A DNA stretch of 64,000 nucleotides from Apostichopus japonicus. Taxonomy: Eukaryota; Echinodermata; Holothuroidea; Aspidochirotida; Stichopodidae. This document shows, piece by piece, positions 2,847 through 61,432 of the stretch. The first letter of the stretch is position 1. Each line of letters starts with the position of its first letter. The DNA lies in assembly GCF_037975245.1 (NCBI RefSeq), contig NC_092579.1, forward strand, positions 16,640,178 through 16,704,177, read 5' to 3'. The notes below the pieces were generated by a model, which saw only the letters and a program-made list of their open reading frames with translations, did no database searches and was not told where the DNA came from. Made by a program: the position numbers and the translations under genes.

Positions 2847-3590
2847 TCATGAATATGTAAATGATGATCCATATGTTGCATTATTTCCAGTCAAAGCATT
2901 TACTGTGTTTGATGGAGCTGCCGATATTGTTTGCTCGAATCCGTAACTCGATTGGTATGCACTGTTCGTAGTGTAGGTGGTACTTCCACCCCAAGGTGGA
3001 TTAGCAGGATTAGCGTACTGTGGATTAACCGAGCCCCATGCATTGACTTGACCCAAGTTGTTACCCGGATATGACGTCACTCGTGGAGAATAAGCAGGTG
3101 GTGCAGTTTGGTAGTGTGTCACGTTCCCACTTATTGACGGTAACACGTTGTATTGGGCTCCGTGAGTGCCACTTGCAATATCAGTAGGCATGTTGACGGG
3201 TGGGGCGCTCGTAACCACGGTGATGTGAGTACCTCCCGATATGGTAACTTGAGAACTCGTCCGCATAGTAGTCTGAACGTTCACTGGTCGATTGGCGGTT
3301 GCCATGACGACCCCACCTGCCGTATTACCATGGATTTCTCTGAATATTTTCAACATACGAATGAGCGAAGAAATAGTGAGAAAACTCATTACTAACATAC
3401 CAGCTCCAAAGATTATGTAAGGAAATACCCCAATGAGCCAGCCAACTAAGACAAATACCAACCCAGCAAAGAAAAGAGAACAGACTACAATTGAGGTCAC
3501 GATGATTCGCTGGTAAAACTGTTCTTTGGACAAACTCTGCAAATGCACCCTCATATTCCGTGCTCTTCCACGACGGTTCCCCACACCCAT
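2847..3590 (-). CDS. Two-span membrane protein with PPxY motif, paralog A
   Basis: Intronless frame of 247 aa; the family is not one I recognise. A short basic N-terminus (MGVGNRRGRARNMR) precedes two adjacent hydrophobic segments, about residues 29-54 and 55-80, joined by a very short turn. The remaining ~165 residues are hydrophilic, rich in Thr, Ser, Asn, Pro, Gly and Tyr, with PPAY at 164-167, a consensus site for WW domains such as those of NEDD4-type ubiquitin ligases. Both ends are thus likely on the same side of the membrane, with the tail cytosolic if the PPxY is used. The gene 2.5 kb upstream (6126-6830) has the same plan, the same MGVG start and the same FTYS end, which supports both as real genes from a tandem duplication. 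I chose the start because it is the first ATG and is shared with the paralog. Function is unknown. Confidence 0.75.
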   Translation of the reverse strand: MGVGNRRGRARNMRVHLQSLSKEQFYQRIIVTSIVVCSLFFAGLVFVLVGWLIGVFPYIIFGAGMLVMSFLTISSLIRMLKIFREIHGNTAGGVVMATANRPVNVQTTMRTSSQVTISGGTHITVVTSAPPVNMPTDIASGTHGAQYNVLPSISGNVTHYQTAPPAYSPRVTSYPGNNLGQVNAWGSVNPQYANPANPPWGGSTTYTTNSAYQSSYGFEQTISAAPSNTVNALTGNNATYGSSFTYS

Positions 3591-6125: not shown

Positions 6126-6830
6126 CTATGAATATGTAAATGCAGATCCTTTGTTATTCTCTGCTGCCTCATTCTTCACACTCGTCGTTGCGTTTTCGTG
6201 TTGAATTCCATACGTTGTGGCGTAATTAGGATCTTGCGTGAATTCGGTTTTAGCATCACCACCAACAAGGGTAGTGAAACCATAAGAAAATTGCCCGTAT
6301 TGCTGGGCGTTCTGCGTCGAGGGCCATGAAGGTGTATAGGGTGGATGGAGCTCCTGCGGCGTTCCTTGGTAATTTGTGTTAACTGCCACATCTGAGCCAG
6401 GTATAACAGTTTGATATGAAGGAGGCGCAGAAGGGCCTTCTGTTGGTTGGCCTACAGTTTGGTGACTTTCTTCCGATTGCGCCTGCGCAGCCATTGAAGC
6501 TTGTTTTGCTCGACGATAGATGTCGGCTACCTGTCTGTGTTTCAGTATGACATACACAAGACAAGGTCCAGCTAAGACAATAAAAACACATCCGATAATT
6601 AAAAGAAACGATCTGCTACCCAGGCTAATAGCTGATACAAGTACGAGTGGCAGAGCTGTGATAACCATGGTTACCAACATTACCCATGAGAATACGTAGC
6701 AATAGTAAATCCGGGCTTCACTGCTATTTTCAAACCGTAGAGGCGGATGAGCGTTACGGTGGTGACGGCGGTTACGGCGGTGACGACGGCGCCTACGCCG
6801 CTTGTGCCCTTCCCCTTCTCCGACGCCCAT
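6126..6830 (-). CDS. Two-span membrane protein with PPxY motif, paralog B
   Basis: Intronless frame of 234 aa, unrecognised family. After MGVG comes an extremely basic stretch (residues 10-26, mostly Arg and His), then two hydrophobic spans at about 43-70 and 73-97, then a basic juxtamembrane segment and a polar tail rich in Gln, Ser, Thr and Pro. PPSY lies at 136-139 and the protein ends SAFTYS; paralog A ends SSFTYS. SYGF is also shared in both tails. The basic N-terminus is a feature that paralog A shows only weakly (NRRGRARNMR), so the two have diverged most outside the membrane hairpin and the C-terminus. The paired PPxY and identical last four residues suggest that the tail recruits partners, but this is inference. 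Both genes lie on the minus strand, so B is upstream. Confidence 0.75.
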   Translation of the reverse strand: MGVGEGEGHKRRRRRRHRRNRRHHRNAHPPLRFENSSEARIYYCYVFSWVMLVTMVITALPLVLVSAISLGSRSFLLIIGCVFIVLAGPCLVYVILKHRQVADIYRRAKQASMAAQAQSEESHQTVGQPTEGPSAPPSYQTVIPGSDVAVNTNYQGTPQELHPPYTPSWPSTQNAQQYGQFSYGFTTLVGGDAKTEFTQDPNYATTYGIQHENATTSVKNEAAENNKGSAFTYS

Positions 6831-20241: not shown

Positions 20242-20950
20242 CAGGCGCGTAGCCAAAGGGAGGGGGCGAAGGAGGAAACCGCCCGCCCCCCCCCCTCGAG
20301 CATATTTTTTGTATTTTTAATGATACCGAAGTTTGATAGTAGCCGTTATAAGAGGTTTTAATATTTGCACACCAATAAATTAACTGTGTCTGAATTTTCG
20401 AAAATTCCCTGACCAACATTCTTCATCATACTTCCCTCTACTCGTGCAATTTTGACCGGCCTGTTAGGGTTGAAGGGGGTTTTTCTATATTGGTTTTCAA
20501 TAGATGAAATTTTGTGCAACATTATGGGTATGTTTTGAAATGAATTTATTATTCAAATTCTGAACAAATAATGGGCTTAAAACCTTGAAAAGTGGGGCTG
20601 ACGGGTATTGTGGGCCGTTACGTATAGTATTACCTACAAAAGCAATGATCCACAGGAGATGCGATGAGGTCGAAACATGATGTGTGACTGCATGGTGACA
20701 ATCTTGAAAAAGGTAATGGATGAAAAAAACTATTGCGAAAAACTTGGTTCTCAGGCAAAAGTGTACATCTGGTTGGTCATTTTCAAGTCCGAGAAATGCC
20801 ATTTCCGGTGATCTGGGGGCTATCAAAACCAAAAATTTTCTTGTACGCTGCGCGCCGACTAATGGTGGCGCTCCGCTTTGATAGTAATTCGCGCCCTCCC
20901 CCCGGGTTAGAAAATCCTGAAGTTGCTAAGCGCCCGCCCCCCCCCCAATA
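20242..20950. mobile_element. Degraded non-autonomous element, copy A of family 2
   Basis: The left end reads CAGGCGCGTAGCCAAAGGG, a hAT-like terminus, followed by a C-rich tract. From about 20384 the sequence is clearly homologous to 59367-59900, including TTTCGAAAATTCCC, GGGCTGACGG and ATGGTGGCGCTCCGC. The right end is decayed and I could not find a target duplication, so boundaries are approximate. Long open frames over it are repeat artefacts. Confidence 0.6.
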
Positions 20951-23380: not shown

Positions 23381-23704
23381 CTATGATGTTTTCATCGGTA
23401 CTCGAGAATCGGGCGAAATCCTGTTTTTTGAGCTCACCCTACGTATGACTGTACTGTCTGATAGTAATTGCCTCTTCTTCATACTTTTTTCAAGGTTCAT
23501 AATTTTCCCAATTTGTCCAGGTAAATGTGTCACAGATGTCACAACTCGATTCGGTTTTCTTGTTGTCTTATCATCCTCCGACGATTTCTCTTCTACCGAT
23601 GATATGGTGTCATTCGAAGATGTCCGTTTTAATGAAGATGTGCTGATAATTTTCCGAAAGCGGAAAATTTCAGGAGTCATCGGATTAAGTAAGTTGCGTG
23701 ACAT
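23381..23704 (-). CDS. Small basic Ser/Lys/Arg-rich protein, family member 1
   Basis: Intronless 107-aa frame, unrecognised. It is highly polar and basic with a Ser/Glu/Asp patch at about residues 34-48 and no signal peptide or membrane span. Its last ~35 residues, from EKSMKKRQLLSDST through RISPDSRVP to the stop, align with the C-terminus of the 110-aa protein at 35367-35699. Shared positions include EK, Q, LSDST, RR, RI-P and RVP, and homology is visible at DNA level around the LSDST codons. A TATA-like TTTATATAGA (minus strand) lies about 40 bp upstream of the ATG, and AATAAA (minus strand; 23190-23195) lies 186 bp downstream of the stop. The opposite strand is also open (128 aa) but lacks the shared signature, so I prefer this strand. 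Function is unknown; Ser/Arg-rich spacing leaves room for phosphorylation. Confidence 0.6.
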   Translation of the reverse strand: MSRNLLNPMTPEIFRFRKIISTSSLKRTSSNDTISSVEEKSSEDDKTTRKPNRVVTSVTHLPGQIGKIMNLEKSMKKRQLLSDSTVIRRVSSKNRISPDSRVPMKTS

Positions 23705-23740
23705 TTTTTACCACTAATACACGGTACACACACACAGTGA

Positions 23741-23750
23741 TCTATATAAA
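23741..23750 (-). promoter_or_regulatory. TATA-like element of small basic gene 1
   Basis: The minus strand reads TTTATATAGA, ending about 37 bp before the ATG at 23704. That spacing implies a very short 5' UTR, as in compact intronless genes. Assignment rests on sequence and position only. Confidence 0.4.
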
Positions 23751-26156
23751 CAGTTACGTATCAAATATTTGTTGTAAAATCTAAAACGGCAACATGTGAC
23801 ACAATTTCTCAAAGTTGTTTTCCACCTACTAGACCACATTTGTCTATAGTTATTGAATTATTTCTTCCAAGATTCTAAAAGTCATGATATTTTGCTCAGT
23901 TATTGACAAAGAGGCAGCAGACGAGCAAGTTATTATACCAAAGCTCCCATTCGGTGAACAACTATAAAAATTGGCATACCCACTGAAGAAGAAAAAAGCG
24001 TGTATCTTCCGATTGTTTTATATATTTTCCGTGTTAAAGAGACAGGGTTGATAAACGGAGTTCGTTGGCAATCGGACGTCCTCATATGAGTAACGTATAT
24101 TTTCTACGTGCCAAAGCGGAGTTTCTAGTCTGAAAACTACATGCTGACAGTGATGAAGGATTCCATTCCAACCTGGAAAGAAAAACACGAAACGTGGTAA
24201 TTAACTGAATGATGGAAAATTGATTTTCGCAGACCTACAGTTGGCCCATATCATGCACAAGGGCACACTGGGTAGGAACCGGTGGGTAGCTGCATGGGTC
24301 ATATGATGTGAAATGCACAGACGGTCGAAATACATCGCTTGTTTTATGGCCTCTGTGTCACCGGTTTGATATCATTGAGCCGGTAGCAATTCATGCCCAG
24401 TCCGCCCCTAGTATATTTGTTAAATTTATTGAAGATGGTGGGCTTATGTCAGATATTAGTTAGATAATCCTAGACCTACTGTATACTTGGTGTGAAGAGG
24501 GCGGTGAAGGTGTGCGGGGCTATATATTGCCCGAAATATGTTATTTTTTTTTTCATTTAAAGTGTTGCAAAAAATTCCATAACATAGCAAACCTTATATC
24601 CTCATTAGGAATTTAATCTCGACGGTGTATCGGTAAATAATCACATGTACAACCATGCATGACGATGTACTTTTTTTTTTTGCCAGAATTGGAAGGGAAA
24701 ACAGGGGAGTGTAGGATTAGGGATCGGTATGTTCGTTTTATAATGGAATACATTAATGAGGCTTTAATACTACAGACTCATTTACGGTAACACTTTAATA
24801 TCAGATTAAATATGAGCAGGGGCAATGTACTAGAGGAATTTGCCACTTCACTCCAACACCCACCCCCTCCCCACCCCCCTCTCCCACTCAAAATATTAAA
24901 AGAAAAATTGATCAATGCCTCTATAAGAAAGATGTGTAGAATGAAAAGTATAATTTTTCTCTTTCATTTTTCAAAATGTAATACTATAGCAATTATATAA
25001 GTGCTCTTTGAGTTTAGAGTATGGAAGATGTTACTTGCTCTTGGGGTTCATTGTTACCATCTTTCTTCGACTATCATTAAAAACCATGATTAACACTTGC
25101 AGTATGTCATTTACGACTGCCTTACACGAATATGGTACTGATATATAACAAGCAATATATGGTATAGACCTATAATTAAATTCGGAAAATAAACAAACAT
25201 TTTCATATTGCATTTTACACGTGGTTAACTGATGAAAATTAGGAAATATTGATAATCGAACAGAATTAGTAAAGACTATAGTTGATTTAGTGCAATGGTT
25301 AATCTGGTCAGCAATGTTTCTTTTGAACCTAATCCCTGGTTTATTTCCATTTCAGCGACAACGTTATGTTTTCTGTATTGTCTTACATTTGATATATTTA
25401 CTAGTAGTATATAATCAGCTCGGTTAATATAATTTACTTCCACCATGGTATTTGTACTACAACCGACAAATCCAAAATAACGCCATATTTTGACCGAATG
25501 CAATCGTTTATATAATACCTATTATAAGAGTGTAAGATCCTGGATTTTAAAAGGAGGAATTGTGGCCCCGTGGTCATTGAAGCAGACTCCCATGTACGGG
25601 GAGAGGGTGATCCTCTCACAGAAAAAAATAATGAAACGTGAAATGGTGCATTCCCAGTGTGGTATATTATTAAGGTTACAAATTAGGTCTAAGATCAGTG
25701 TTTTTGACGCAAGGTTTTCAACACGACTATACACACAAGCCTTTCCCTCAACAAGCTCAAAACGAAATGAAATTTCACTTACCAGAGAGTGTGTAGCATA
25801 TACGAGAGTCTCGACTATAGTCGTCGCAGAGCGTTCTCTTTAGAATGCGTCTATTGCAGTATTAATAAATGTCTTCGATGTTTGGTTAAGGATTTTCTCT
25901 GATTCGTGTGCACGTTTAGCCTATCGTGAATTATACTAGTTCCTCATATGTGTCTTATATTTAAAGGCCACAGTACATAGCGCGCCTACACTCCACAAAA
26001 CAGTATACACATTAACGTATACGGTATGTGGCATATACTGATATCCTATGCATGGCTCAGATTGCCCCAAGTTTTATTTTGTTTGTCCCTGGACCAAAGA
26101 TTCAATAGAGACTGTATTGATTCGATGAGTTACATACACTGTGGCAAATAAGCACC

Positions 26157-26429
26157 ATGGCAACGGAACGCGGATCGCCGTGGACTCAGGCCTCAAACTA
26201 TATATGCGGAGTCAAAACGGCCTGGTCAATACGCTTGTATAGATTGCGGTCAAGGACAACGAAAGGTTTCAACAATAGGCCTAGTGCTTTTAGCACAGCG
26301 GTCCTGCCAACAACCCTTACGGCCCCTTGTATACGGAAACCTGTCAACCTTCCCACAAATGAACAGAACTTGACAAAAACGGGGAAAAAGGACCATTCAC
26401 TTCCTACTGTTAGAAATGTAATTGTATAA
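26157..26429 (+). CDS. Possible small intronless protein, 90 aa
   Basis: The frame starts at an ATG in a strong context (CACCATGG) and encodes a basic, Thr/Arg/Pro-rich protein without hydrophobic segment. It has no relative elsewhere in the window and I do not recognise it. It could equally be a first exon or a chance frame. The good initiation context and the slightly higher GC than its surroundings are the only support. Confidence 0.25.
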   Translation: MATERGSPWTQASNYICGVKTAWSIRLYRLRSRTTKGFNNRPSAFSTAVLPTTLTAPCIRKPVNLPTNEQNLTKTGKKDHSLPTVRNVIV

Positions 26430-29400
26430 TTATTTCACTGTTCAGTTTATTGGCACATCAATCCCTCTGGTGTATTCAACTTGATTTTTTTTTTTATGTA
26501 TTGGTCTCGATTGACTTCTGAAGCAGATCTTGCTGGGATCAAAAAAATGGGCCGTCACTCTTACAGAGAGGAAGAGGGTTCAATCTTGTAGGTACACAGA
26601 CCTAGAGCAGTGGGATAGAAATTATTAGCTATGACACAGATTTAGGGGAAAACCACAACGTTTCCTCAAAACATTCCAGCAAAATGGCTCTTCTGCATGT
26701 GTCTTCCATGCATGTCCCATTAATCCAGTATTTGACTGATATTCATCAAAAGGCCACAAGCCTATTTATTATACTTTTTTCTCTTAACTTTTGTCATAAC
26801 ATGACAAGTTTTCTTTACAGTTTTCATTTTTCAACAAAGATAACTTTTTGGATTACAAAGGACACAGTTTACCAACAGAAATTACCCCCCAAAAAGTATG
26901 CTCTTTGTTACCAAGCAAGGCAGGTAACTTATTAGTCAAAACTATTGAATGAAATGTTTCACCCGAAAGGAGGTGAGAGCGGTACTGAAGAACTCAGTAG
27001 TGCATAGACTCTAGATTTGTGGCCTGATTAATTCGCAGATGACATTGCAAGGGTCCTACCTATACCACGTAAGATTTGTCACAGAGGTTCTACTCGTAAT
27101 GCGTAAGCTAGGTTGGCATGTAATATGCATTTCTGAGTGGTCGAATGAGGACTTTATTTCAGGATCCGCGTTATAGTCATTGCCGACTTGGCAATCCGCG
27201 GTGCCACTCACAATTTTGCAAGATCGCTGAAAATGAATGCATAGTTGTCCCTTTCGAGAAATCAAAAGGGGCAGATTTGAGGTTTCTGTTACAAAACTGC
27301 AGGGAGGGCACGTGCTCCGTGGCATCTAGTGCCTTTGCTCATATATAAGATTAGAAAAGCGAATATAGCATTATTAAGTACTAAGTATTGAAGATCTTGA
27401 TTAAGTTATAAGCACATTACTTGGATACATGCAAAGTCATTTGTTTAATGCTTTCAAATATGATGAAATTAAGGCTATAACTCCTATAAAGGGCTAACGT
27501 ATAACTACAAGACAGTGAGACAACGTATAGGAGCTTGTGCGCGCGACGGTGAGTGAGTGATAATTTCCCATCAAACCTATATGGACAGCGCGAGGGCCGG
27601 ATGAGGCGAGGTGATGACGACATCCATTGAAGGACCTACACTGAAAATATAAACTAGTCAATATTACCACGGACTGACGTTAAATTAGTCTGTAACGTTA
27701 GTCAATGCACATGGACTAGCAAAAATCTTCGTTTCATCGCTGCTTCTTAGTCAGTTTACACTGACTAAGGAAAATATAATCGCAGCTTAGTCGGTGGCGA
27801 CGGACTAAGGTGTTTTAACCCATGGACTAAGAACGATACGGACACCCGATTTACGCCATAATCGTAGCTTAGTCGGTGTCGACGGACTAATGTATTTTAA
27901 CCCACTTCGATTCACTTCAATTTGGAAACCGAGAGGCAACGGCAGCTTGCTGGACTTGGCATAGTTTCAAACGATCACTCTAAGCAACTTTCAACCGTAA
28001 ATCACCCAAGAAGGTCTTTAGAAGAATGGAGGTATTAACTGCCATCATCGGCCTACCTGTTATTCCTTTAACTTGAAGGTAAATTTAAAGTTAATTGTGA
28101 GGCCACTGGCACTAGTACTGTATTATGGTTAGTGTAACGCTACCGTTGTCACGTTGGCGTTTCGCAATACACAAGTGTAATGACAGTGAGTAGCCTATAG
28201 GCTTCTACTGGGTACTGCAGTGCATTCTCAACACTAAAGTGTGCATTCTAAACACCAATTAACAATGTGTTATGTGTGTATTGGGCTAGATTGAACAGTG
28301 GCACATAATCTTCTAATTTATTCCCAAACAAATGCTGGAACTATAAGTCTCAATAGTTTATTTGAAGTCTACACTCATTTGGTAAAGATTTCCTGTAATT
28401 TCCCATGTGAATCTAAATGGTTAGGCTTTGTGATATTGAATAAGCAAGGCTAGACTTTCAAACGTACAGTCACAGTAAGCTGAACAAATTATGTTGGCTA
28501 GTCAACGGTATTATATGTTGCGAGCAGTCAGGATGCACGCTTCAGTTCTATTTAACCTTTTCATTTATCATTTTTTAGTATTTAATTTCCGGTCACGCCC
28601 AGGAAACAATTGCGACATTCCTTCACGGTCGACTTGTTTACTGTAAGAAGTATTAACCGTTTTTTCTCAGGAAAGCTTGATAGTCTGAAGTTATTATAAC
28701 ATGTGCTTTTAGTATACTGCCAAAAGAGTAAGTTGTTGTATTTGTATTGATATTTTATGTAGAAGTAACAGAAAATTTAGTATGTTTAGTTTGGTCTATT
28801 TGCACGTTTTTTTTTCTGTCCAATGTAGTGCAGGGTTCACTTGCGCGAATTCAAATTATTCTGTTTATGTATATGTATATGCATCGATTCGTAGATTATG
28901 ATGTTTTTTGACATTTATTTGTAATTCAAGCATATCTGTTTAGTAGTAAAGTTTAAAGGTTAAGATTAATTAGTTTTCTCTTTTTGGTCCTAGATTGAAT
29001 GAAACTCATTGACGTAAATAATAGATCAGATGATACAGTTTAACGCAGTTGCTAAAACTCTGGGTATTCTCTAGTCTTCGCCGGTCCATTATGTACTTTA
29101 GTACTACTAGTAAGACTAAATTAAAACGACCGAGAGACAAACTTAGTGTAACAAAGTACTGATTCTCCTCTAGCCTAGGTCTAAACAGGCTTGTTATGTG
29201 AGCAAGCAAAATAACAACTAAAAGCTATTAGGCCTATAAGTAAGTTGGCTCAGTGCATTTCTGTTTCTAAAATTTTATATTTTTAAAGATCATAAAAACA
29301 AACAAAGATTTAGCCCATGTTTTATTATCTCTGTATTCTGGGCATTTGATTCTGGTTGCAATGGTGATGACACTCTCGTTCAAATTTTCAGCTTTATGCA

Positions 29401-29598
29401 GTCTGCTTCAAACTTTGGGATTGTTTTTTGAGACTATAGTGGAAGCAAATCTCACATAACTTTGTGGTGACAACTTTATTTAATTTTTTTTCAAATGATG
29501 AATACTTTGCTGTTTCTTTTTTCCAGCAGGAATTGAAAAGCCAAATATCTAAGTCAAGGGTGAGGTTTCCTGTGATGTATGACACCAGTGTGGAGGCA

Positions 29599-30720
29599 AC
29601 AACAGAAGAGGAGAACTGTGTTATATATGGCTTAAAGACATGTTTTATGATGATATATTGGTACCCTCCGCAGAACAAAAGAGTTTATCCAAGAGTCCAA
29701 AAAGCAAAGGAACAAGTACCATAGAAAAAAAAGATGGAAGAGTGAGTTTAACTATTGTACCCAACTGTTTAATGATATTAAAGATACTTTAAAAAAAAAA
29801 CAGTCTAGTATATCATTAACGTGCAAGCTTCATAAGTTTGGTCAAATTTTCACTGATCTGTAGAGCGGGAGTCCAGAGGGTTTGGTTAGCTGGGAAGGTA
29901 ACCAATTGCCTGGTACATCACAATGTTCGCAATGCATTCCTGTATATGAAACCTGACGACTGGCAAACCGACTGTGGTGGATGTGGCTGGGAGAGCAATT
30001 TTAAAGTCACCTAATAGCTAACCTAGATCAGCTTTCATGGTAAGCACATCAAAGTAAGAACAATGTGTCAGGTATGGCCCCAAGAGCAACAAATGGCCAT
30101 CGCCAGTAATTATTGGTGGTGGGGTACCCCTGCCAGTGATCAACAATTGACCCCTCACGGCTGACCTAGGTCAGCTCATGAGGTAACCACTTGAAACCTA
30201 CTGGAAAATGTTGGTTAGGACTTCAGATAAAAGGGATGGTCATTGCCAGTATTTTTTATTGGTGGGGTACCCCTGCCAGTAGACCCCCAATATGCCCATC
30301 CCCTCATTGACCTAGGTGAGCTCATGATTTGACCAGTTGAAACCTACAGGAAAATGATAGGTATCACTTCATATGTAAGGATGGGCATTTGGGATCATTA
30401 TTAACATGATTAACATAATTATTAAGCTTTGAAAAATAACTTGGTGTTATGCTGTGCAAAGCTAATAATTATTTGGTAAAGCTGCTATTCCTGGCTTATA
30501 ATTTGAGGGACCTAGATTTAAATGTATACCTCCCAATATGTTATAAAATTTTAATGTAAATGTTAATGTATGATAATGTGAGTTATCATGTGCTATATCT
30601 GTATCTGTGCTTACACGTATATCATATTTTCTGTTCGCAGGTCAATAATGGTGCAGATTTTGGCTTCCTAAAGACAAGTGGGAGGCCATTTGTAGTTAAG
30701 AGAAACACTCTTTGTTCGTG
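29599..30720 (+). CDS. Possible spliced two-exon coding fragment inside the element
   Basis: Read from an acceptor-like ACACCAG, one frame is open to a good donor GTGAGT after codons for KKDGR (exon ending 29745). An in-phase acceptor TTCGCAG is followed by a short terminal exon (30642-30720) reading VNNGADFGFL and ending NTLCS before a TGA. Splice phases agree (phase 0), but no start exon or known domain is visible. It may be a captured host gene piece or a chance pairing. A competing frame over the first segment is open at 29464-29724. Confidence 0.25.
30105..30375. repeat. Tandem duplication, ~135-bp period
   Basis: Two imperfect copies with shared GGTGGGGTACCCCTGCCAGT, GACCTAGGT, AGCTCATGA and TTGAAACCTAC segments. 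It lies inside the 27641-31411 element and is non-coding. Confidence 0.8.
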
Positions 30721-31411
30721 AAGACTTAACTGGTGTCGATTTGGGGTACCACTTTAAAACGAAAGTGATGAGGAACCCTTGCCCAAGATTCAACTTTGCA
30801 TTATTGTGCAGTGCTATACTTTTGCGATTCATGTTTGATCCATTAACTTGTCTTAACTTTGTTGGAATAAGATCATATTTTCAGATTTTTGTTTACAGTG
30901 ATTTCTTCTCTATCTGTCGAAAGTCAGCCTTTGTAGACATCAGAAGTTTTATCAGAAATAAATACTGCCAACGTACACATTATTTGTGTTTCTTCTGCTC
31001 TCTTTTCTTTCAGTGATGCTAGTCAGTGAAACTAGTCGGGTTTAATTCTTTCAGTGATTCTAGTCAGTGCAACTAATCAGTCGATACCGACTAAGAAAGG
31101 TTAGTCGGGAGAGGCACCATCCTGACTAATGTAAAACCTGCTATAAACTAGTCGGTGGCTCATATAAATTAGTCGGTAAAGACCGACAAATGTCACCAAC
31201 TAATGTAACCGACTAATATACATTTAACGACTAAGAAATTGTTGATCGACTAAGCTGACGGACTAAGATGACCGACTAAGAAATCCAACTGACTAAGGAA
31301 TAAATTAGTCGGTATAGCAACTGACTACGGCTATGTTAGTCGGGAGAGGCACCAGATGGACTAACGTTTTGTTAGTCGGTGAACCAATTTAAGTTTTCAG
31401 TTTATAAACTA

Positions 31412-32901
31412 TCACGTAGCAGCTGAGTGTAAAGTAATAGGGACGTATACAGTTGTAACGATAACTCATTCTATCGTCATTTCGTGTTTAATTAAATGGA
31501 TATGTTAAATATATGAAAAATGTCGCCTTTGTGAGAATATCAGCAGAAATTGGTCAAATCAGTTTCGTATTTGCGTTAAGTTCAGAACTAACCATAACCA
31601 ATATTCCAGCGCTAGTGGTGTGATATACATGCATGGTTTTAGGCAGGCCTATTTAAGCACTAATATACAGTTAAGTGCTCATCCTTATCGAGTAGGCGAG
31701 TGCATTAGCCAATATTAACAGTGTGCCACTATGCATTTAGATCTGATCATTGCACAAAGATTACGCAGAGTAATAGTCAAATTTTGATTCACCTAACTAT
31801 TCTGCACGACGGACAGACCCCTCAGTGCACACTGTTCTTATTAATGAGTTACACCTCGAGAGAGCTTCGATTGAGATGAAACCTGAAAAAGATCTACATA
31901 TTACAGTCAAATGACCAGTAACTGCCTCGTAACGCCTCCCACCACATAAATGCTAAAAACTCAATTATATAATTTGTTAACAAGTGCAGTTAATCCTTAT
32001 AAAATGTGTTATGAAGTTGATACGTCTTTTTTTTTTTTTGCAGTTTAATTTGATAATGTTTGATAGAACTGATTCTAATCCATTCATATATACCATATCA
32101 CGTAGGTGATTATCTATAGTTATATTGGCTTTTATTTGATCATTATCTGATGATGTATAAATGTTAACATTTTGTCCAAATTGTTTGTCCAATGTATGTA
32201 AGAAATACTGACATATGAAACAGTGTATCGTGGAATCATTCGTGTCTTGCTTAGTGTCCTTCGTTGACGGGGGAGGGGGGCTGGGGGGTCTATGCGGCTG
32301 TCTAAACTTTGACCAATTGTTATCTTAATTTCAGTACCTTAATAGTCGATGCAAACAATCACAGCTTTGATGAGAATATCATAAGTAACCATGCCACATA
32401 TAGGCCTCGTTGACTTTAGTGGTTTGTCGAATATGAATTACACACAACCTGACGATTAGAATAGATCGGGGAAGCACATTCCCTGACACACTCAGGGTAA
32501 AAAAATTATTTACATTATTGATTGCATGTTATTGAGCATAACTGTAATGCAGGACACCGTCATCCGTGAACGGTGTGGTGCGGTAGGGTGCTTGTATGGG
32601 GGAGGGGGTATAACTTCATGTGAGCGCCAAAACAGGTTGAAATCGATGGGTAACTTGATCAGTTCCTCTATCAGTGGTTGCGCTAACAATTTATATTCCA
32701 GTTTCATTTTTCACTGCTTGAACATATTTTTGTTTTCAAAGCTCGCATATCTTGCTATGATTTGTTAGTTTTTGACTTAGGTTATGACAATATTCTGACT
32801 TAAGGACAAAAAAATTCATTTGGCAGAATTTACTTTGCGTTGAAACCTATCATAGCTTACGACGAAGTACATGTTTCTATAAGTGTAACTTATAATGTGT
32901 C
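31412..32901. other. Intergenic, no gene seen
   Basis: AT-rich sequence between the candidate element and the first MITE of the repeat island. Frames at 31977-32192 and 32526-32768 are short and unsupported. Confidence 0.5.
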
Positions 32902-32909
32902 GGTGGGTT

Positions 32910-33477
32910 CATGTGCGCAGATCAGTATTGGATAATGGTGGGGACGCGTGCCTGTTCTCTGATACTATCTAAGCGGAGCGCGACCATGGGTTTGCGCGTA
33001 GCGAACAATCATTTTTTTGTTGTTGTGGCAAATATACCTCCCAGATCGCCGGAAATAACACTTCCCACATCCAATGATGCTCCTAAACCTCCTTAAATTT
33101 CAGATCTCATGGCTTAGAAATTTAGTTTGGGGAAATACATGGGCGTCTGCAGAAAAAAAAAATGAGGGGACAATTAATCCAAGTAGACTTTTGTTTACGA
33201 TGGGTCTGGGGTCCTCTCCCAGAAAACAATTATAGACTGCCGCAAATGCGATTTCCGTCCAATATTTAACGACTGTGAATAAAATATAATAAAATGAGAA
33301 CTGCTGGATGTCATTTGCACAATGCTGGATCAACCTGCGCCAAAGTTCAATACAGGGGAATTTGAAATGCAGCGTTTGGTGAAGACAAATTGGTAGGGAC
33401 ACGGTATATCATGTCCTCACCACTGAACAAGTTGGTGGGGACGCGTCCCGCTGTCCCCACCAGGATCTGCGCCCATG
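32910..33477 (-). mobile_element. hAT-like MITE, family 1, copy 1 (568 bp)
   Basis: Flanked by the perfect 8-bp direct repeat GGTGGGTT (32902-32909 and 33478-33485). Its terminal inverted repeats are CATGTGCGCAGATC on the left and, from the right end inward, CATGGGCGCAGATC. The whole unit is the reverse complement of the copy at 58728-59284, matching along its entire length with small indels. It has no coding capacity. The 8-bp duplication with CA ends fits hAT. Confidence 0.93.
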
Positions 33478-33610
33478 GGTGGGTTTGGGGGACATGCGGA
33501 TTAAATTCTTCCACTGACTCCACAACTTGTAATGTATGATTGAGATTAGGTCAATTTTCATTTGACCAGTTAGACTTGCACGTACAGCAGTTAGTCCCTA
33601 TACGTACATC

Positions 33611-34247
33611 CAAGGGCGGCGGAACCGGGGGGCACAGGGGGCACGTGCCCCCCACTTTTCCTCAGGTTAAAAATGTGCCCTTTTTCTACATAAAAATTGA
33701 GTTGTCTCAAGTTAGCAAGAGGCCAGGGAACCAGAATGAACACTCGAGAAGGTCCGTTTCCGGCCATCTGAGGGGTTCGTAAAACCAAAAATTTTCTTGT
33801 ACGTACGCTCCGCGCCAACCGATGGTGGCGCTCCGCTCAGATAGTCGTGCATACAACTTTGCAAATCCTGGCTACGCCTGTGGGTCAAACTCAAAGCTAT
33901 TTCGAATGGAAAAAAATGGTAAGATATTAACAAGAAATAAACTCTAATTCGGAAGATTCCTACATTAGCAACTAGCATGATTTCACCTCATTTTGTCTCA
34001 AAAGAAAATTTGTTCCTTGTTTCCCAATTTGCAAATTGGATATTGCAGTGCTAATATGCATTTTTCTTTGAGAGGGGGGGGGGGGGGCGTTGATGGAGTG
34101 ATGTGTATACGCAAATAAGATAATACAATAAGATTTATAAAGGGTACTAAATATAAGGCTGCATCAGTCCAATGGAATTTCTGCAAAGTGCCCTTTGATG
34201 TCGGTGCCCCCCCCCCCCCCAGATTAAAAGTGCTTCCGCCGCCCTTG
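33611..34247. mobile_element. hAT-like MITE, family 3 (637 bp) with nested fragment
   Basis: Flanked by the perfect 8-bp repeat CGTACATC (33603-33610 and 34248-34255). Terminal inverted repeats are CAAGGGCGGCGGAA on both sides, each followed inward by a G/C-rich stretch (the right one a 14-base C run). Inside, about 33745-33872 is a fragment of the family-2 repeat (ATGGTGGCGCTCCGC, then a CTACGCCTG end), so one element has inserted in or recombined with another. Open frames over it are not genes. Confidence 0.9.
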
Positions 34248-34255
34248 CGTACATC

Positions 34256-35366
34256 ATGTTCAGTAGACCTTTTTGGCTTGGGGTGGGGCGAACAAGCTGC
34301 AAAATTATTGTTCTAATTCCTCTGACTATTGGAAGAGATCTATAACTGTGTACATCTTTTTTCAATCTTTTGTTCGTCGCTTTAATTTAGGTTTTAGGTT
34401 TAATTGCATTCGGCCATGGGGCTCTAGCCTGATGGCTGCTAAACGAACAGTTTCCACGTACTTGTAAAGCTATACCCTGACGTATAATCTCCCGGCAGAA
34501 TCGATAATAAGCTGTACAGGGGCGCATATGTGTATTGCATCCCTCATGAATAAACATATGTTCATACTATCACCAAGGCAGCCGTAATACGCCATCAGTG
34601 ATTTTGGCGAACGGTCATCTGTTACTACAATAGGCAATATAGCATCGACCGCCACGTTGGTAACTGGCTACCGAACAAGCTGCCGCTCTCTGTAGGTCTC
34701 GTAGGACTAATTGAAAGTTACTCGAGTGTGTCCAACATCAATAAATGTTTTTCTGGTTTCCCCGGACGATAATCCGTAACAAAGGCATGTTGATGAATGG
34801 CTCTGGAGAAAGAAAGAGGTAGTAAATATTTGGTCCTACTACACACAGCAACCCTCCGCATATATAGTTTGCTCGAACTGGCAACATTGACATTAGACAA
34901 AGCTATCATCTCTCAGAGATTACATTTGATAAAAACAAGCAAGTTGTGGTTTTCATTTCAAACATTATCAAGAAGATTTTGTTTATTGTTTATCGAAGAG
35001 ATTTCCATTTGGTAAACATTATTAATCCGTATAAATCAGTTGTTTTTGGAACCTTTTGTGGATTTTTACGGGCAAGATATCTAAGACATCAGCCGTGCGT
35101 GCTTGGACTTAAGTGGTTAAGACAACCATCTGAAAAGATATATTTAACGTGCAAAGGAACTGTTGATTTTTATCAAAACATACATCGCTTAGACGAGGAA
35201 CTATATATCCATTCCACTTATCATCAAGTAGCTGTCTTTTAAACAAAAGAAGCTGATTTTCATCGTTGGAGATAGCCATACTTCATCGAAGCCACGCAGT
35301 ATCTACGGTATATATACCTCAACCTCAATATCTCGATTTCACAAGTGAATCTTACCAACCATCATC
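34256..35366. other. 5' flank of small basic gene 2; no firm gene
   Basis: Contains a 98-aa plus-strand frame (34946-35242) rich in aromatic and basic residues, with no recognisable motif and an AT-rich composition like non-coding DNA. The last ~60 bases hold the TATA-like element of the next gene. Confidence 0.4.
35310..35317 (+). promoter_or_regulatory. TATA-like element of small basic gene 2
   Basis: TATATATA about 50 bp upstream of the ATG at 35367, giving the same compact promoter-to-start layout as the paralog at 23704. Confidence 0.4.
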
Positions 35367-35699
35367 ATGTCTTTCGATTTGATTACACCAGCAACCTCCC
35401 AAACACACCTCTACATGGCAGAAGAATATTATGTAGAACAAGAAGTAGATGGGAAGAAAGTGAAAAGAAAATTTAAGCTTTTCAAATCAATCAAGAAAAT
35501 TCCAAAAAGTGTAAAGAAAGGGATGAAGGCAGAGAAATACATCCTGAAAGAGCAATTTGGAAGAAGTTCAGCCGTAAACACAATGAAAACAGAGAAGAAG
35601 ATAGTAGGGAAGCAACTATCAGATAGTACAGCGGTGAGAAGAATGAAAGTTCAAGTACGAATTACTCCATCGTGCAGAGTTCCCGTTGCTGCAGCATGA
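35367..35699 (+). CDS. Small basic Lys-rich protein, family member 2
   Basis: Intronless 110-aa frame, unrecognised. An acidic/aromatic patch near residues 17-27 (MAEEYYVEQEV) is followed by a very Lys-rich middle (residues 29-60) with an amphipathic, probably helical pattern. The C-terminal third ends LSDSTAVRR...RITPSCRVPVAAA. That third aligns with the minus-strand protein at 23381-23704; the N-terminal halves do not. No signal peptide or membrane span is seen. I use the first ATG; an internal Met at residue 17 is an alternative start. The strong Lys bias suggests nucleic-acid or acidic-membrane contact, but this is inference. Downstream sequence carries an unusual array of CAGG...CCTG hairpins that may belong to its 3' UTR. 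Confidence 0.65.
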   Translation: MSFDLITPATSQTHLYMAEEYYVEQEVDGKKVKRKFKLFKSIKKIPKSVKKGMKAEKYILKEQFGRSSAVNTMKTEKKIVGKQLSDSTAVRRMKVQVRITPSCRVPVAAA

Positions 35700-48600: not shown

Positions 48601-51600
48601 TCAACCAAAGATGATGGTTCTGAATATGACGTCCAGTCGGGACTAGGAATAAGGAGCCACCGAATGCTCCTTTAAACAAATGAAAGAATAAAAGAGAACG
48701 TTGTTTATTGTACAGGGAGGAGTAGATCCAGGTGGGGGTCCCAGGCTGCCCTCATGAGATTCAGTCGGGACTAGGATTAAGGAGCCACCAAATGCTCCTT
48801 TAAAGGAATAAAGAAAAAAAGAAGAAGAAAGAATGTGTTCATCTTATGGGGAGTGGACCCAGGTTGGGGACCCGGCGCTGCCCTTCTGAGATTCTTTTTA
48901 AAACTAAAAATTAATTACAGACATAATTTAGTGATCGAAACAAGGTATACAGTGGAGATATGTTTAGGAAGCTACATCCACAGGCATTCCTGCTGTCCGC
49001 TAGTTACATGCAGTTTTGCTGAAGGTAAAAAGACACCTCATAGCAATTAGGAGAAGTATATCTAGCATCCTTAAAGATGGAAAGTTGAAGGAGGGAGTGA
49101 GGGGGGGGGGCTGAGGATAAAGTACCAAAGACTTCAAATTTAAAACAATTCACTAATTAAAAATGGCAACCATGTCTCAGTGTTTTCACGAGAATAGCAT
49201 TAACGATAATACAATGGTTCTATTCAGAGGGTTGAACTAATTAATATTCAAATTAAAGATCAAACAGTGACCAAAAACACCTTTACTTCAATGATGATGT
49301 AAGTGGTACAAAAAAATGTGCTGGATAAGAATAAACATGATTGAGTCATTAAAAAGGCATGACGAGATTATACTTGGAAACTAAATTCTAGTACAAATAG
49401 AATCTGTACAGAATCTAGTACAGATAGAATGCTGAGTGTGCATGTTTTCTTTCCCAAAATTTGACACACACAACTCTTACATACTTTCCATTATATCCAC
49501 CTCACCTTTCACAAAGTGTTATCATTGCATTTGAGGAGCTTGGGTCTGGTGTTATCAAATAGGGAGCCACCTGCCTCAGATTGTATATTAAACTACTGTG
49601 TTTCCAACCACGGTATCATCTTCTGCCTGAAATGTAAAATAATTATTTCAATCACACCTCTCTGCAGAAGAAACCGATATAGCATGGTGACCATGCTGAC
49701 ATATGATAATATGCTAGCTAAGAATGAGAATATGGAATAAAACTGCCATCTTTGAATTAAAAAAAAAAAGATAGTTTTCAAGCATTTTCAACCGGGTAAA
49801 TGAAATGATGGGTCCGTGCCAGTTGTAAAGCTATTACTTCTGTCTTTTTGCTGTAGGTCATGAAGACAATCTGCTGATTTGAGAACTTTGAGACAATGTA
49901 GTTGTAGGGAAAATATCAGTTGCGTAGCAATAGATGGTTCATGGAACCATGGCTAATAAGGGTTGGTACTTTCTTTATGCCAAGAGCAGTTTAGATGAAG
50001 GGTGATGGGTTTCAGCTCTCACTATTAAACCGGGGGGCCACTGAATCTCTAGCTAAGGTATGTCAGAAATGTATTGTCATGAACTAAATGGTCACAGTAA
50101 TTCTAATGTCAGGAGATTGAAACTGGGAGAAGGGTTTTAGGTAACAGTGACATCATCTTTCGTTTTCATACTCGAAGGTTCTTTCATCCTGTTGTGGTTT
50201 TTCTTCAAAAGATGTAAATGTTACCTTTAAATGCGGACGCTGCCCAGTAATGGCTAAAAATTTTGGCAAATCTGTTCCATCCTTGTTTCCCGACAGTTTC
50301 TTGAAAATTGTAGACATCTGAGGAGTATATCCAGACCATGGGATCTACAAGGTCACCGAGTTTGTATTCTGTCATTTGAAAATAAAGGTAAAATTTAATC
50401 AAGAAATGATCATAGAGCTGATGCCCAATGTAAGCAGAAAAGTCTAGTAGGGCATCCCCACCCCCCCCCTTCCCCAAGGAAAGAAGGAGAAGAAGAAAAC
50501 AAAAGAGCTGGCAGATGCTGGACAAAGGATGGTTGGGCACTCTGCCTCTTTGCAGTATTCTATCACAGGGATTCTTTAAATTTGAACATCGTCTTACATT
50601 AAAGCTGCATCAGTTACCTAAAAGCAAGTTCACAATACGCAACTAACCATTTGGACATTTGAACCCCTGGAATGACGAGACCGATTCCTCACCATTTTTG
50701 AGACAAGACATCTATATGTAACTTTTATAATAATTTCAAATTGGTAATTGCTATGTTTGAATGGGTTTCTCTGTGCAATAAGTTAACGTTTTGAGTTTTC
50801 ACGCTCAAATTTCCCTCTATGAATGTAATTTTAATTAATTTTCTCTGAAGATGTACCGGAAACAAAATATTCTAAAAGATTAAAAAATGACATTGGCTTT
50901 CTTTATCCACTGAGGTTGATCAATCTTACCGATAATTTGTGATGCATCAATCTTTCTGAGCATATCGTCCCACATTATCAGCTGGAGATTGGGCTGTTCG
51001 TCTTTCATAAATTTGAGCACTTGAGCGACATGATCGAGATAAATATCAGCCAAGCTGCTATTGACAGATTTTGCCATTTTCTCCCGACAACGTTGACATT
51101 GTCCAAGTGACATTACCTGTGAATATCATAAATCGATGAAAAAATTAATCGGTTTTGAGCAAGGTACTGAGGTAAATAACAGAATGGAATGCTGTCTTTC
51201 ACAGAATAATTGTCTGCCGTAGGACAAACTTACGCAGGTTACAAACAAGGAACGGAATTCTTAAAGGGCAAGCAATAAATAATCTATTTATTAAAACCTG
51301 GAGCAATCATTCCATAACTGTGCTTTCATTCAAGTGTTTATGAAATGCTAGATGTAGCACAGCCTTCCTTCCTCCATGGACGCTTAATGTCTCTTTGTGA
51401 TCCTTTCTGAGACAAAGTAAGAAAACACATGAATTGTTTTACTCTAATTGATCATATCAAAAGTCATTTGTTTTTGGTGTAACTTGGCCTTTTAATCTTT
51501 GCAATGTCTGTGGTAAATTGAAAGGCTAGATATCTTTACAGAGAAAAGTGAACGAGGTTAACCTCATCGGCACCGATATGGAAATACTTCAACTCCCGAT

Positions 51601-58719: not shown

Positions 58720-58727
58720 CTCCAAAC

Positions 58728-59284
58728 CATGGGCGCAGATCCTGGTGAAGACAGCGGGACGCGTCCCCACCAACTTTTTCAGTAGTGTGGACATGATATA
58801 CCGTGTCCCCACCAATTTGTCTTGACCAATAGCTGCATTTCAAGTTCCCCTGTATTGAACTTTGGCGCAGTTTGATCCAGCATTGTGCAAATGACATGCA
58901 GCAGTTCTCATTTTATTGTATTGTTTCCACAGTTGTTAAATATAGGACGGAAATCGCATTTGCGGCAGTCTATATTTGTTTTCTGGGAGAGGACCCCAGA
59001 CCCATCGTATATACAAAAGTCTACTTGGATTATTTGACCCCTGATTTTCTTTCTGCAGACGCCCATGTATTTCTCCAAACCAAATTTCTAAGCCATGAGA
59101 TCTAAAACTTAAGGAGGTTTAGGAGCATCATTAGGTCTGGGAAGTGTTATTTCCGGCGATCTGGGAGGTATATTTGCCCAAAATATCGTACGCTACGCGC
59201 GAACCCGTGGTCGCGCTCCGCTTAGATAGTATCAGAGAGCATACACGCGTCCCCACCATTATCCAATACTGATCTGCGCCCATG
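58728..59284 (+). mobile_element. hAT-like MITE, family 1, copy 2 (557 bp)
   Basis: Flanking 8-bp repeats CTCCAAAC (58720-58727) and CTCAAAAC (59285-59292) differ at one position. Terminal inverted repeats CATGGGCGCAGATC are perfect on both sides. It matches the copy at 32910-33477 end to end in opposite orientation. No coding capacity. Confidence 0.93.
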
Positions 59285-59364: not shown

Positions 59365-59900
59365 ATTGCGGTCTGAATTTTCGAAAATTCCCTAACCAAC
59401 ATTCTTCATCATACTTCATCATACTCGTGCAGTTTTGACCCGTCTGTTAGGGTTTGAAGGAGGTTTTTTCTATATCGGTTGTCCATAGATGATATTTTGT
59501 GCAACATTATGGGTATGTTTTGAAGTGAATTTATTCACGAGAATTGTGAATTTTCAAATTCTGAACAGTGGGGCTGACGGATACTGTGGGCCGCGATGAA
59601 GAATCACCTACAAAAGCAATGATCCACAGGATATGTGATGAAGTCGAACATGATGTGTGACTGGTGACAATCTTCAAAAAGGTTATAGATGAGAAAAAAG
59701 GGTATTTGGAAATACTTGGTTCTCAGGCAAAAGTGTACATATGGTTGGTCAGTTTCAAGCCCGAGAAGTGCCATTTCCGGTGATCTGGGGGTACCAAAAC
59801 CAGAAATTTGCTTGTACGCTGCGCGCCAACCAATGGTGGCACTCCGCGTAGAAAGTAATACGCGCCCCCCGGGTTGGAAAATCCTGCATACGCCCCTGGT
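59365..59900. mobile_element. Family 2 element, copy B (right part)
   Basis: Homologous to 20384-20930 across its length. The right end, read inward, begins CAGGGGCGTATGCAGGATTT, a typical hAT-like terminus. The left end is missing or lies beyond the MITE at 58728-59284. An additional related segment (59925-60020) follows, and another hAT-like terminus (CCGCCACTG, 60085-60093) closes the cluster. Confidence 0.65.
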
Positions 59901-60439: not shown

Positions 60440-61080
60440 TCATGCTAGCGGTCCACCGGCGGCCCGCCAGCTGCACCACTGGCGGTCCACCGGCGGGGAA
60501 AGCCGGCGGAACGCCAGAGATTTGGCCGGCTTTAATCCGGCGGTCCGCCGGCGACAACGCCAGAAGACCGCCGGAGAAACGCCAGCGTACCGCCGGTGTA
60601 CCGCCAGTGTTTCACAAGCAGACCGCCGAAGAAACGCCAGCGTACCGCCGGTGTTCCACCAGTAGACCGCCAAAGAAACGCCGGTGAACCGCCAAAGAAA
60701 CGCCAGCGTTCCGCCGGTGTACCGCCAGTGTTCCACCGGCAGACCGCCGAAGAAACTCCAGCGTACCGCCGGTGTTCCACCAGTAGACCGCCAAAGAAAC
60801 GCCAGTGTACCGCCGAAGAAACGCCAGCGTACCGTCAGTGTTCCACCAGCAGACCGCCGAAGAAACGCCAGCGTACCGTCAGTGTTCCACCAGCAGACCG
60901 CCGAAGAAACGCCAGCGTACCGCCGGTGTTCCACCAGTAGACCGCCAAAGAAACGCCAGTGTACCGCCGAAGAAACGCCAGCGTACCGTCAGTGTTCCAC
61001 CAGCAGACCGCCGAAGAAACGCCAGTGTACCGCCGGTGTTCTACCAGCACACCGCCGGAGAAACGCAAGCTTACCACCGA
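60440..61080. repeat. GC-rich minisatellite, 44-bp higher-order unit
   Basis: The clearest units (for example two in succession starting at 60841 and 60885) are 44 bp long, starting TTCCACCAGC and containing ACCGCCGAAGAAACGCCAGC. They are built from shorter ACCGCC/GCCGGTGT subunits, and degenerate copies extend to both sides. Because 44 is not a multiple of 3 and the unit has no stops, long open frames appear in several frames on both strands (up to 164 aa); they are not genes. The region is far richer in GC than its surroundings. Confidence 0.93.
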
Positions 61081-61432
61081 AGTACCGCTGAATTTCTGTC
61101 AGAGAGAGCCACTGGCTATCCACTAGCTAATATCCAGTGTTCTGGCGACCTGCTAGCCCAAATCTGGTATTCCGCCAGCAACCCGCTAGGCAGAGATCTT
61201 CACATGAATTGCTAACCAAATATCTGTTTTCCGGCAGAAAACTGTTTGGGGTGTACTACTAGAACAGAGCTATTGGTCTACCTGCAGATTTTACTGAATT
61301 ACACATGCGGTTACATATGAAGAAATAATGACGAACACAGTGAAATAAGTTGCTATCATTTTATTACGCCTATAAATTACAAAGCGAGAAAATGAGTTCC
61401 AGCGTTAAATATTGCAACAGCACTAAAGAAAT
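61081..61432. other. Between minisatellite and DUF4806-like gene
   Basis: Sequence just after the array keeps weak similarity to its subunits (GCCAGCAACCCGCTAG near 61175). The rest would be 3' UTR of the minus-strand gene. No gene seen. Confidence 0.4.

Follow-up and report, generated by a model that had tools for sequence, protein, structure and literature searches.

The stretch of sea cucumber (Apostichopus japonicus) DNA analysed here, 64,000 bases that we call the window (bases 16640178-16704177 of contig 19), contains two small single-frame genes whose predicted products appear to be related to one another. We refer to the 107 amino acid (aa) protein encoded on the minus strand as P1 and to the 110-aa protein encoded on the plus strand as P2. 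The two putative genes lie on opposite strands with about 12 kb between them. An initial annotation of the window had proposed both frames (23381-23704 and 35367-35699) and we found that each runs from an ATG to a stop codon. The same annotation had presumed that the DNA came from an echinoderm, which agrees with its source.

P1 and P2 share a C-terminal tail

P1 and P2 were compared by Smith-Waterman alignment, which gave a score of 82 for the whole proteins, while the highest score was 70 in 5000 shuffles of P2 and 62 in 5000 local-composition shuffles. Comparison of the last 35 residues, P1 against P2, gave a score of 66 and none of 10000 shuffles reached that value. This verifies the common tail LSDST..RR.....RI[S/T]P..RVP of the initial annotation; chance-level similarity of the tail, which had been named beforehand as a refutation, is made very unlikely by the same shuffles. 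By blastp P1 matches P2 with an expectation value (E) of 3e-9 in a single comparison, and by tblastn within the window with E of 3e-6 to 5e-6.

We also asked how the score ranks in the window, which has 116 open reading frames (ORFs) that start with ATG and encode at least 50 aa. All 6617 non-overlapping pairs of these were scored in the same way. Just four scores exceeded 82, all of them between repeat copies, and the scores below it were 81 for a pair of membrane-protein genes, 67 for another repeat pair and then 50. The p value from a Gumbel fit (6.3e-6) becomes about 0.04 when multiplied by 6617 pairs. The score of 82 alone is not overwhelming after this correction, and the relation of the two sequences is further supported by their pattern of codons and by their reciprocal match across the genome.

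P1 and P2 have 13 identical residues in the part that runs from LSDST to the C-terminus; 5 of these are encoded by the same codon and 8 by different codons. All four identical arginines differ in codon, three being CGN versus AGR and one AGG versus AGA. Over the 25 codons from LSDST onward, codon positions 1, 2 and 3 match at 13, 18 and 8 sites, respectively. The coding frames score 82 against each other, while each of the remaining 35 frame combinations scores 55 or less. This coding-type pattern of codon change in the two paralogues is evidence that they are protein-coding.

The similarity of P1 and P2 extends beyond the tail

According to the initial annotation only the last ~33 residues are common to the two proteins. 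We found that the bodies without tails score 45, a value matched by 18 of 10000 shuffles, and that the N-termini (MS..L..P.T, with the Met obligatory) score 25, matched by 93 of 10000. P2 carries a tandem duplication in which MKAEKYILKEQFGRSSAVNTMKTE is followed 20 residues on by MKTEKKIVGKQLSDSTAVRRMKVQ, and P1 has a single copy of the duplicated unit (MNLEKSMKKRQLLSDSTVIRR). Since there is similarity in the body and N-terminus and a unit common to both proteins, P1 and P2 appear to be homologous over their full length with the N-terminal part more changed. We consider full-length homology with a better kept C-terminal part probable from these alignments, and the idea of a conserved tail on variable, unrelated bodies gives way to one of bodies that seem homologous but more diverged. 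The flanking DNA, 2.5 kb on each side, is unlike between the genes; the best match is 40 bp long with E of 0.007 and is of low complexity when translated.

The residues before the last 35 have isoelectric points (pI) of 10.0 in P1 and 9.9 in P2. The first 30 residues of P2 are acidic (pI 4.1). Its residues 31-60 are very basic, with 13 Lys or Arg and 1 Asp or Glu, and P2 has clusters of lysine. Within P1, residues 1-30 are basic and residues 31-60 slightly acidic (pI 5.6). The statement that both N-terminal halves are strongly basic is contradicted, as it was worded, by P2 1-30 and P1 31-60.

Ser/Thr-Pro occurs exactly twice in each protein, once toward either end. The N-terminal sites do not align, while the site in the tail is kept (RISP in one protein and RITP in the other); two sequences are insufficient to show constraint at single residues. 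The initial annotation had read the tail as pointing to a common partner or modification site, for which the kept Ser/Thr-Pro would be a candidate. By hydropathy, and without a dedicated predictor, neither a signal peptide nor a membrane span is likely in P1 or P2. The best 11-residue hydropathy for windows that start in residues 1-25 is 0.35 for P1 and 0.61 for P2, and the best 19-residue windows reach 0.47 and 0.29.

The positions of these features are collected in Table 1. Both frames fit a single exon, with in-frame stops upstream of each ATG. The open frames thus agree with the proposal that the genes are putatively intronless. A TATA-like element had been placed 40-50 bp before each ATG. 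This position holds for P1 and not for P2, where TATATA starts 56-58 bp upstream. The sequence TATA[A/T]A occurs between -60 and -30 of 148 of the 2620 ATGs in the window (5.6%), and with this background the presence of TATATA upstream of both genes is suggestive only. Real elements at these positions would imply 5' leaders of about 15 bases for P1 and 25-30 bases for P2.

Table 1. Positions in the window of the putative P1 and P2 genes and of their features (pLDDT, predicted local distance difference test).
Feature	Position	Strand	Basis or remark
P1 gene, 107 aa, pI 11.0, single open frame	23381..23704	-	in-frame stop two codons upstream of ATG
P1 conserved tail LSDSTVIRRVSSKNRISPDSRVPM; last three residues and stop come after	23393..23464	-	tail score
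TATATA, starts 44 bp before P1 ATG	23743..23748	-	
TATATATA, starts 58 bp before P2 ATG	35309..35316	+	
P2 gene, 110 aa, pI 10.1, single open frame	35367..35699	+	in-frame stop seven codons upstream of ATG
P2 residues 15-42, predicted beta-hairpin	35409..35492	+	AlphaFold; mean pLDDT 87 (residues 21-30), 85 (31-40)
P2 residues 37-54, cationic amphipathic stretch, aligns with P1 53-70	35475..35528	+	hydrophobic moment 0.77
P2 repeat unit 1 MKAEKYILKEQFGRSSAVNTMKTE	35523..35594	+	score 49 against unit 2, 0/5000 shuffles
P2 repeat unit 2 MKTEKKIVGKQLSDSTAVRRMKVQ, unit common to P1	35583..35654	+	
P2 conserved tail LSDSTAVRRMKVQVRITPSCRVPV	35616..35687	+	

Each tail has a single other match in the genome

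The genome searched comprises 671,581,487 bases in 35 contigs. At E of 10 or less the P2 tail (38 aa) found only itself and P1 (E 0.23), and the P1 tail (39 aa) found only itself and P2 (E 0.28), two candidates being scored in each search. The only other genome match of each tail is thus 12 kb away, as a local inverted duplication predicts. Full-length P2 found itself alone at E of 0.001. At E of 10 or less, full-length P1 found itself, P2 (E 4.8) and three further loci, L025 (E 0.48), L026 (E 2.6) and L028 (E 9.6).

L025 lies on the same contig, 1.2 Mb off, aligns with residues 40-103 of P1 and has an in-frame stop inside the alignment. It is partly tail-like (SMEKHHLLDDTS... compared with SMKKRQLLSDST...), but lacks LSDST, RR and RVP and is unlisted in both tail searches. 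This locus may be a chance-level match or a broken remnant. L026 was rejected as a third copy because it aligns to P1 residues 4-70 only, and L028 because its match is only a lysine/glutamate-rich run; in neither case is the tail motif covered. Within the window, tblastn gave no third copy among the matches listed for the P1 tail, nor in the list for the P2 tail, and a profile of P1 and P2 found nothing besides these two at E below 1 in the 284 kb around the window. We conclude from these searches that there is no third convincing copy in the 671.6 Mb at the sensitivity used, at which a copy as distant from P1 as P2 is could escape the first-look filter. The new family that had been proposed comes down to a homologous pair of small genes that has no Pfam match above cut-off and just two members found in this genome.

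Predicted structures and searches for relatives

AlphaFold models of P1 and P2 were built from a two-sequence alignment and both are poor. The P1 model has a helix at residues 62-92, with mean pLDDT of 70 and 73 across residues 61-80 and 57 for residues 81-90, and the rest is weak. The P2 model has a hairpin at residues 15-42 and a helix at residues 47-65; residues 66-110 have pLDDT below 50 and the whole model 57. If helical, P2 residues 37-54 would be strongly amphipathic and cationic, yet they are partly strand in the model. When the low-confidence P2 model was compared with the PDB by Foldseek, none of 109 matches had E of 0.001 or less and the best had E of 1.9. Those to ribosomal proteins were weak, with E of at least 1.9 and a template modelling (TM) score of about 0.2.

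Searches of Pfam-A listed no family for P1 at E of 10 or less and none above cut-off for P2. The sub-cut-off matches of P2 at E of 10 or less were DUF2024 (14.2 bits, cut-off 27) and UPF0223 (10.3 bits, cut-off 25). A phmmer search of PDB sequences with P2 gave only two ribosomal eL24 chains (E 4.2 and 9.5), and membership of P2 in eL24 was rejected since an E of 4.2 is not significant. With patterns taken from the body and N-terminus rather than the tail, 600 pattern stretches in viral contigs and 308 in prokaryote genome contigs were inspected and none was confirmed.

Six peptide strings of P1 and P2 are absent from the open-access papers searched, and topic searches gave nothing on a P1/P2 family. 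A six-letter motif string does occur in papers on G-protein-coupled receptors and on virus T-cell epitopes, which by title are unrelated. The terms intronless, single-exon, orphan and uncharacterized do not appear in the available part of a preprint on a Holothuria genome (PMC13228809).

Neighbouring genes and repeats

Dispersed repeats in the window include copies at 32910-33478 and 58727-59284, which are inverted and 90% alike, and at 20388-20919 and 59371-59886, which are 84% alike. A minisatellite at 60545-61088 has units of 22 bases and multiples of this (22, 44, 66, 110 and 154), and several of its frames are open on both strands. Rfam searches at gathering scores and tRNA searches of the window gave no match. 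A bacterial promoter scan of the window was set aside as inapplicable to an animal gene.

Two single-frame genes on the minus strand, 2847-3590 and 6126-6830, encode membrane-protein-like products with a basic start and a Tyr/Pro-rich C-terminus that ends in FTYS. Their mutual score is 81, no Pfam family was found for them above cut-off, and a third such membrane-protein-like single-frame gene with a basic start lies ~10.3-11.1 kb left of the window. The minus-strand frames 50208-50609 and 50883-51125 are apparent exons of what we take to be a hexosaminidase D-like gene. Frame 50883-51125 matches glycosyl hydrolase family 20 in Pfam at E of 0.04, which is below cut-off, and frame 50208-50609 has no Pfam family at E of 0.1 or less. 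To the left of the window, at ~51-16 kb, there are three receptor-like single-frame ORFs, presumably seven-transmembrane-like, and ~46-63 kb past its right end four transporter-like ORFs that are near-identical stand in a row. With these receptor-like ORFs on one side and the transporter-like row on the other, local gene duplication is common in the surrounding region.

Elsewhere in the assembly, contig 35 is the mitochondrion, 16,099 bases with the echinoderm code and with COX1 identified by Pfam. Its genes, which we take, apart from COX1, to be those named here, run COX1, ND4L, COX2, ATP6, COX3, ND3, ND4, ND5, ND6 (minus), CYTB and then ND1 and ND2 (plus). This gene order is that of sea urchins and sea cucumbers and not that of starfish. 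Pieces of mitochondrial COX1 also occur separately in contig 29 (G000:C29:14745-31219), as either a nuclear copy or a fragment of mitochondrial assembly.

Discussion

Our data suggest that P1 and P2 may be two single-exon protein-coding genes that arose by an old local inverted duplication and encode a small cationic docking protein. We give this reading as a whole about an even chance. That the gene pair is real we hold to be highly probable, while the docking or phospho-switch mechanism is doubtful.

Several observations weigh against this reading. The support for the genes is sequence from one genome, and a comparison of just two sequences leaves purifying selection on individual residues of the tail inseparable from incomplete divergence. 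Synonymous codon usage is neutral compared with synonymous recoding (z of 1.1 for P1 and -0.1 for P2) and lends no coding support, and among the 141 ATG ORFs of at least 80 aa in 284 kb P1 ranks 43rd and P2 91st by codon usage. This codon-usage test is weak, as it was trained on 9 gene stretches picked by eye and scores the transporter-like genes, which have 313-317 codons, at just 1.7-1.9. The score of 55, the highest of the non-coding frame combinations, belongs to an antisense frame pair. The genome-wide E values of the pair (0.23, 0.28 and 4.8) are too weak to stand alone, and in the search with full-length P1 the locus L025, with its in-frame stop, outscored P2.

The codon usage that is not gene-like and the fitted p of ~0.04 after correction would also suit a pair of spurious ORFs that resemble each other by coincidence over 24 residues. 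We consider this very unlikely, since no shuffle reached the observed scores (0/5000 twice and 0/10000), the matches by codon position are uneven (13, 18 and 8 of 25), the sole other genome match of each tail at E of 10 or less is 12 kb distant, and there is collinear additional similarity in the body and N-terminus. Nor does it seem at all credible that P1 and P2 are decayed copies of the small ORF of a mobile element rather than host genes. Repeats are common in the window and copies (20388-20919 and 32910-33478) lie within ~2-2.5 kb of each gene, but there are at most two convincing copies of the frames in 671.6 Mb, the 2.5-kb flanks have no notable repeat in common, and the two frames are open and combine diverged third positions with conserved residues.

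Other readings accept a real gene pair and assign it a different product. One is a precursor whose peptide would be cationic and membrane-active (antimicrobial-like). In P2, the stretch KFKLFKSIKKIPKSVKKGMKAEK is amphipathic and cationic and presumably cecropin-like, residues 37-54 have the high hydrophobic moment, residues 31-60 are strongly cationic, and the acidic residues 1-30 precede this part. An acidic stretch before a cationic part occurs in some propeptides. We find such a precursor improbable, however, because a signal peptide is unlikely by hydropathy, cecropins are not among the Pfam families at E of 10 or less, phmmer against the PDB gave only eL24 for P2, the matching stretch of P1 is less cationic and contains Pro-Gly, and AlphaFold has P2 residues 30-42 as strand and not helix. 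The other would be a small protein that binds nucleic acid or chromatin, of the testis, egg or early-embryo type, encoded by an intronless, TATA-driven, short gene and basic in charge. The pI values of 11.0 and 10.1, the lysine clusters of P2 and TATATA shortly upstream of each ATG fit this description, but there is no Pfam family above cut-off, no sequence relative of P2 in the PDB and, among Foldseek matches, nothing beyond the weak ribosomal ones, and we rate this product as rather unlikely.

If P1 and P2 are instead genes for a docking protein, the following course of events can be proposed. Long ago, in a sea cucumber, one ancestral gene would have been duplicated locally and in inverted orientation to give P1 and P2. 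Third codon positions and the flanks examined would then have diverged beyond similarity, while selection at the protein level would have kept a helical module, M-[KN]-x-E-K-x-[IM]...-Q-L-S-D-S-T-x-x-R-R, and the tail R-I-[S/T]-P-x-x-R-V-P; the module would have been doubled in P2. The product would be a small cationic protein of the cytosol or nucleus, mostly disordered alone, whose amphipathic basic helix could contact an acidic surface, be it nucleic acid, membrane or an acidic protein. The tail might serve as a short docking peptide, with a proline-directed kinase acting on Ser97/Thr100 as its switch. Expression, an intronless transcript, location, binding and phosphorylation are properties that we infer for P1 and P2. 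It is a long shot that the 24-residue unit M-K-x-E-K-x-I-x-x-x-Q-L-S-D-S-T-A-V-R-R-M-K together with the RI[S/T]PxxRVP tail forms a new sea cucumber or echinoderm module, that is, a duplicable kinase-switched helical docking unit on fast-changing cationic proteins.

As it stands this is an ordinary find, a diverged duplicate pair whose function is open to inference only. If transcribed, it would be an example of a gene, young or quickly evolving, that annotation by domains can miss, in an echinoderm that is farmed and regenerates. With the conserved module and tail, searches for orthologues and tests of partners or phosphorylation have a defined stretch to work with.

P2 can be compared with known systems at several points. 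Cecropins, which are cationic helical peptides, are like P2 in having a lysine-rich amphipathic stretch. P1 and P2 differ from them in that no signal peptide is likely and no Pfam profile matches at E of 10 or less, grounds on which cecropin membership was rejected, and their best-conserved part, the tail, lies elsewhere. Among PDB sequences, ribosomal eL24 scored best with P2 and aligned to its residues 30-99; this likeness is probably one of lysine-rich composition only. P1 and P2 make up an orphan gene pair, a known kind, with members that are new to the searches made, and they offer a modest lead to a gene that may be peculiar to sea cucumbers. The available text on spiralian genes with spiralian-specific protein motifs describes motifs strongly conserved within Spiralia and the expression of 20 such genes (PMC7441323). 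As far as that text goes, P1 and P2 resemble these as genes known by a conserved motif of one animal group, and are unlike them in being known here as two paralogues in one species.

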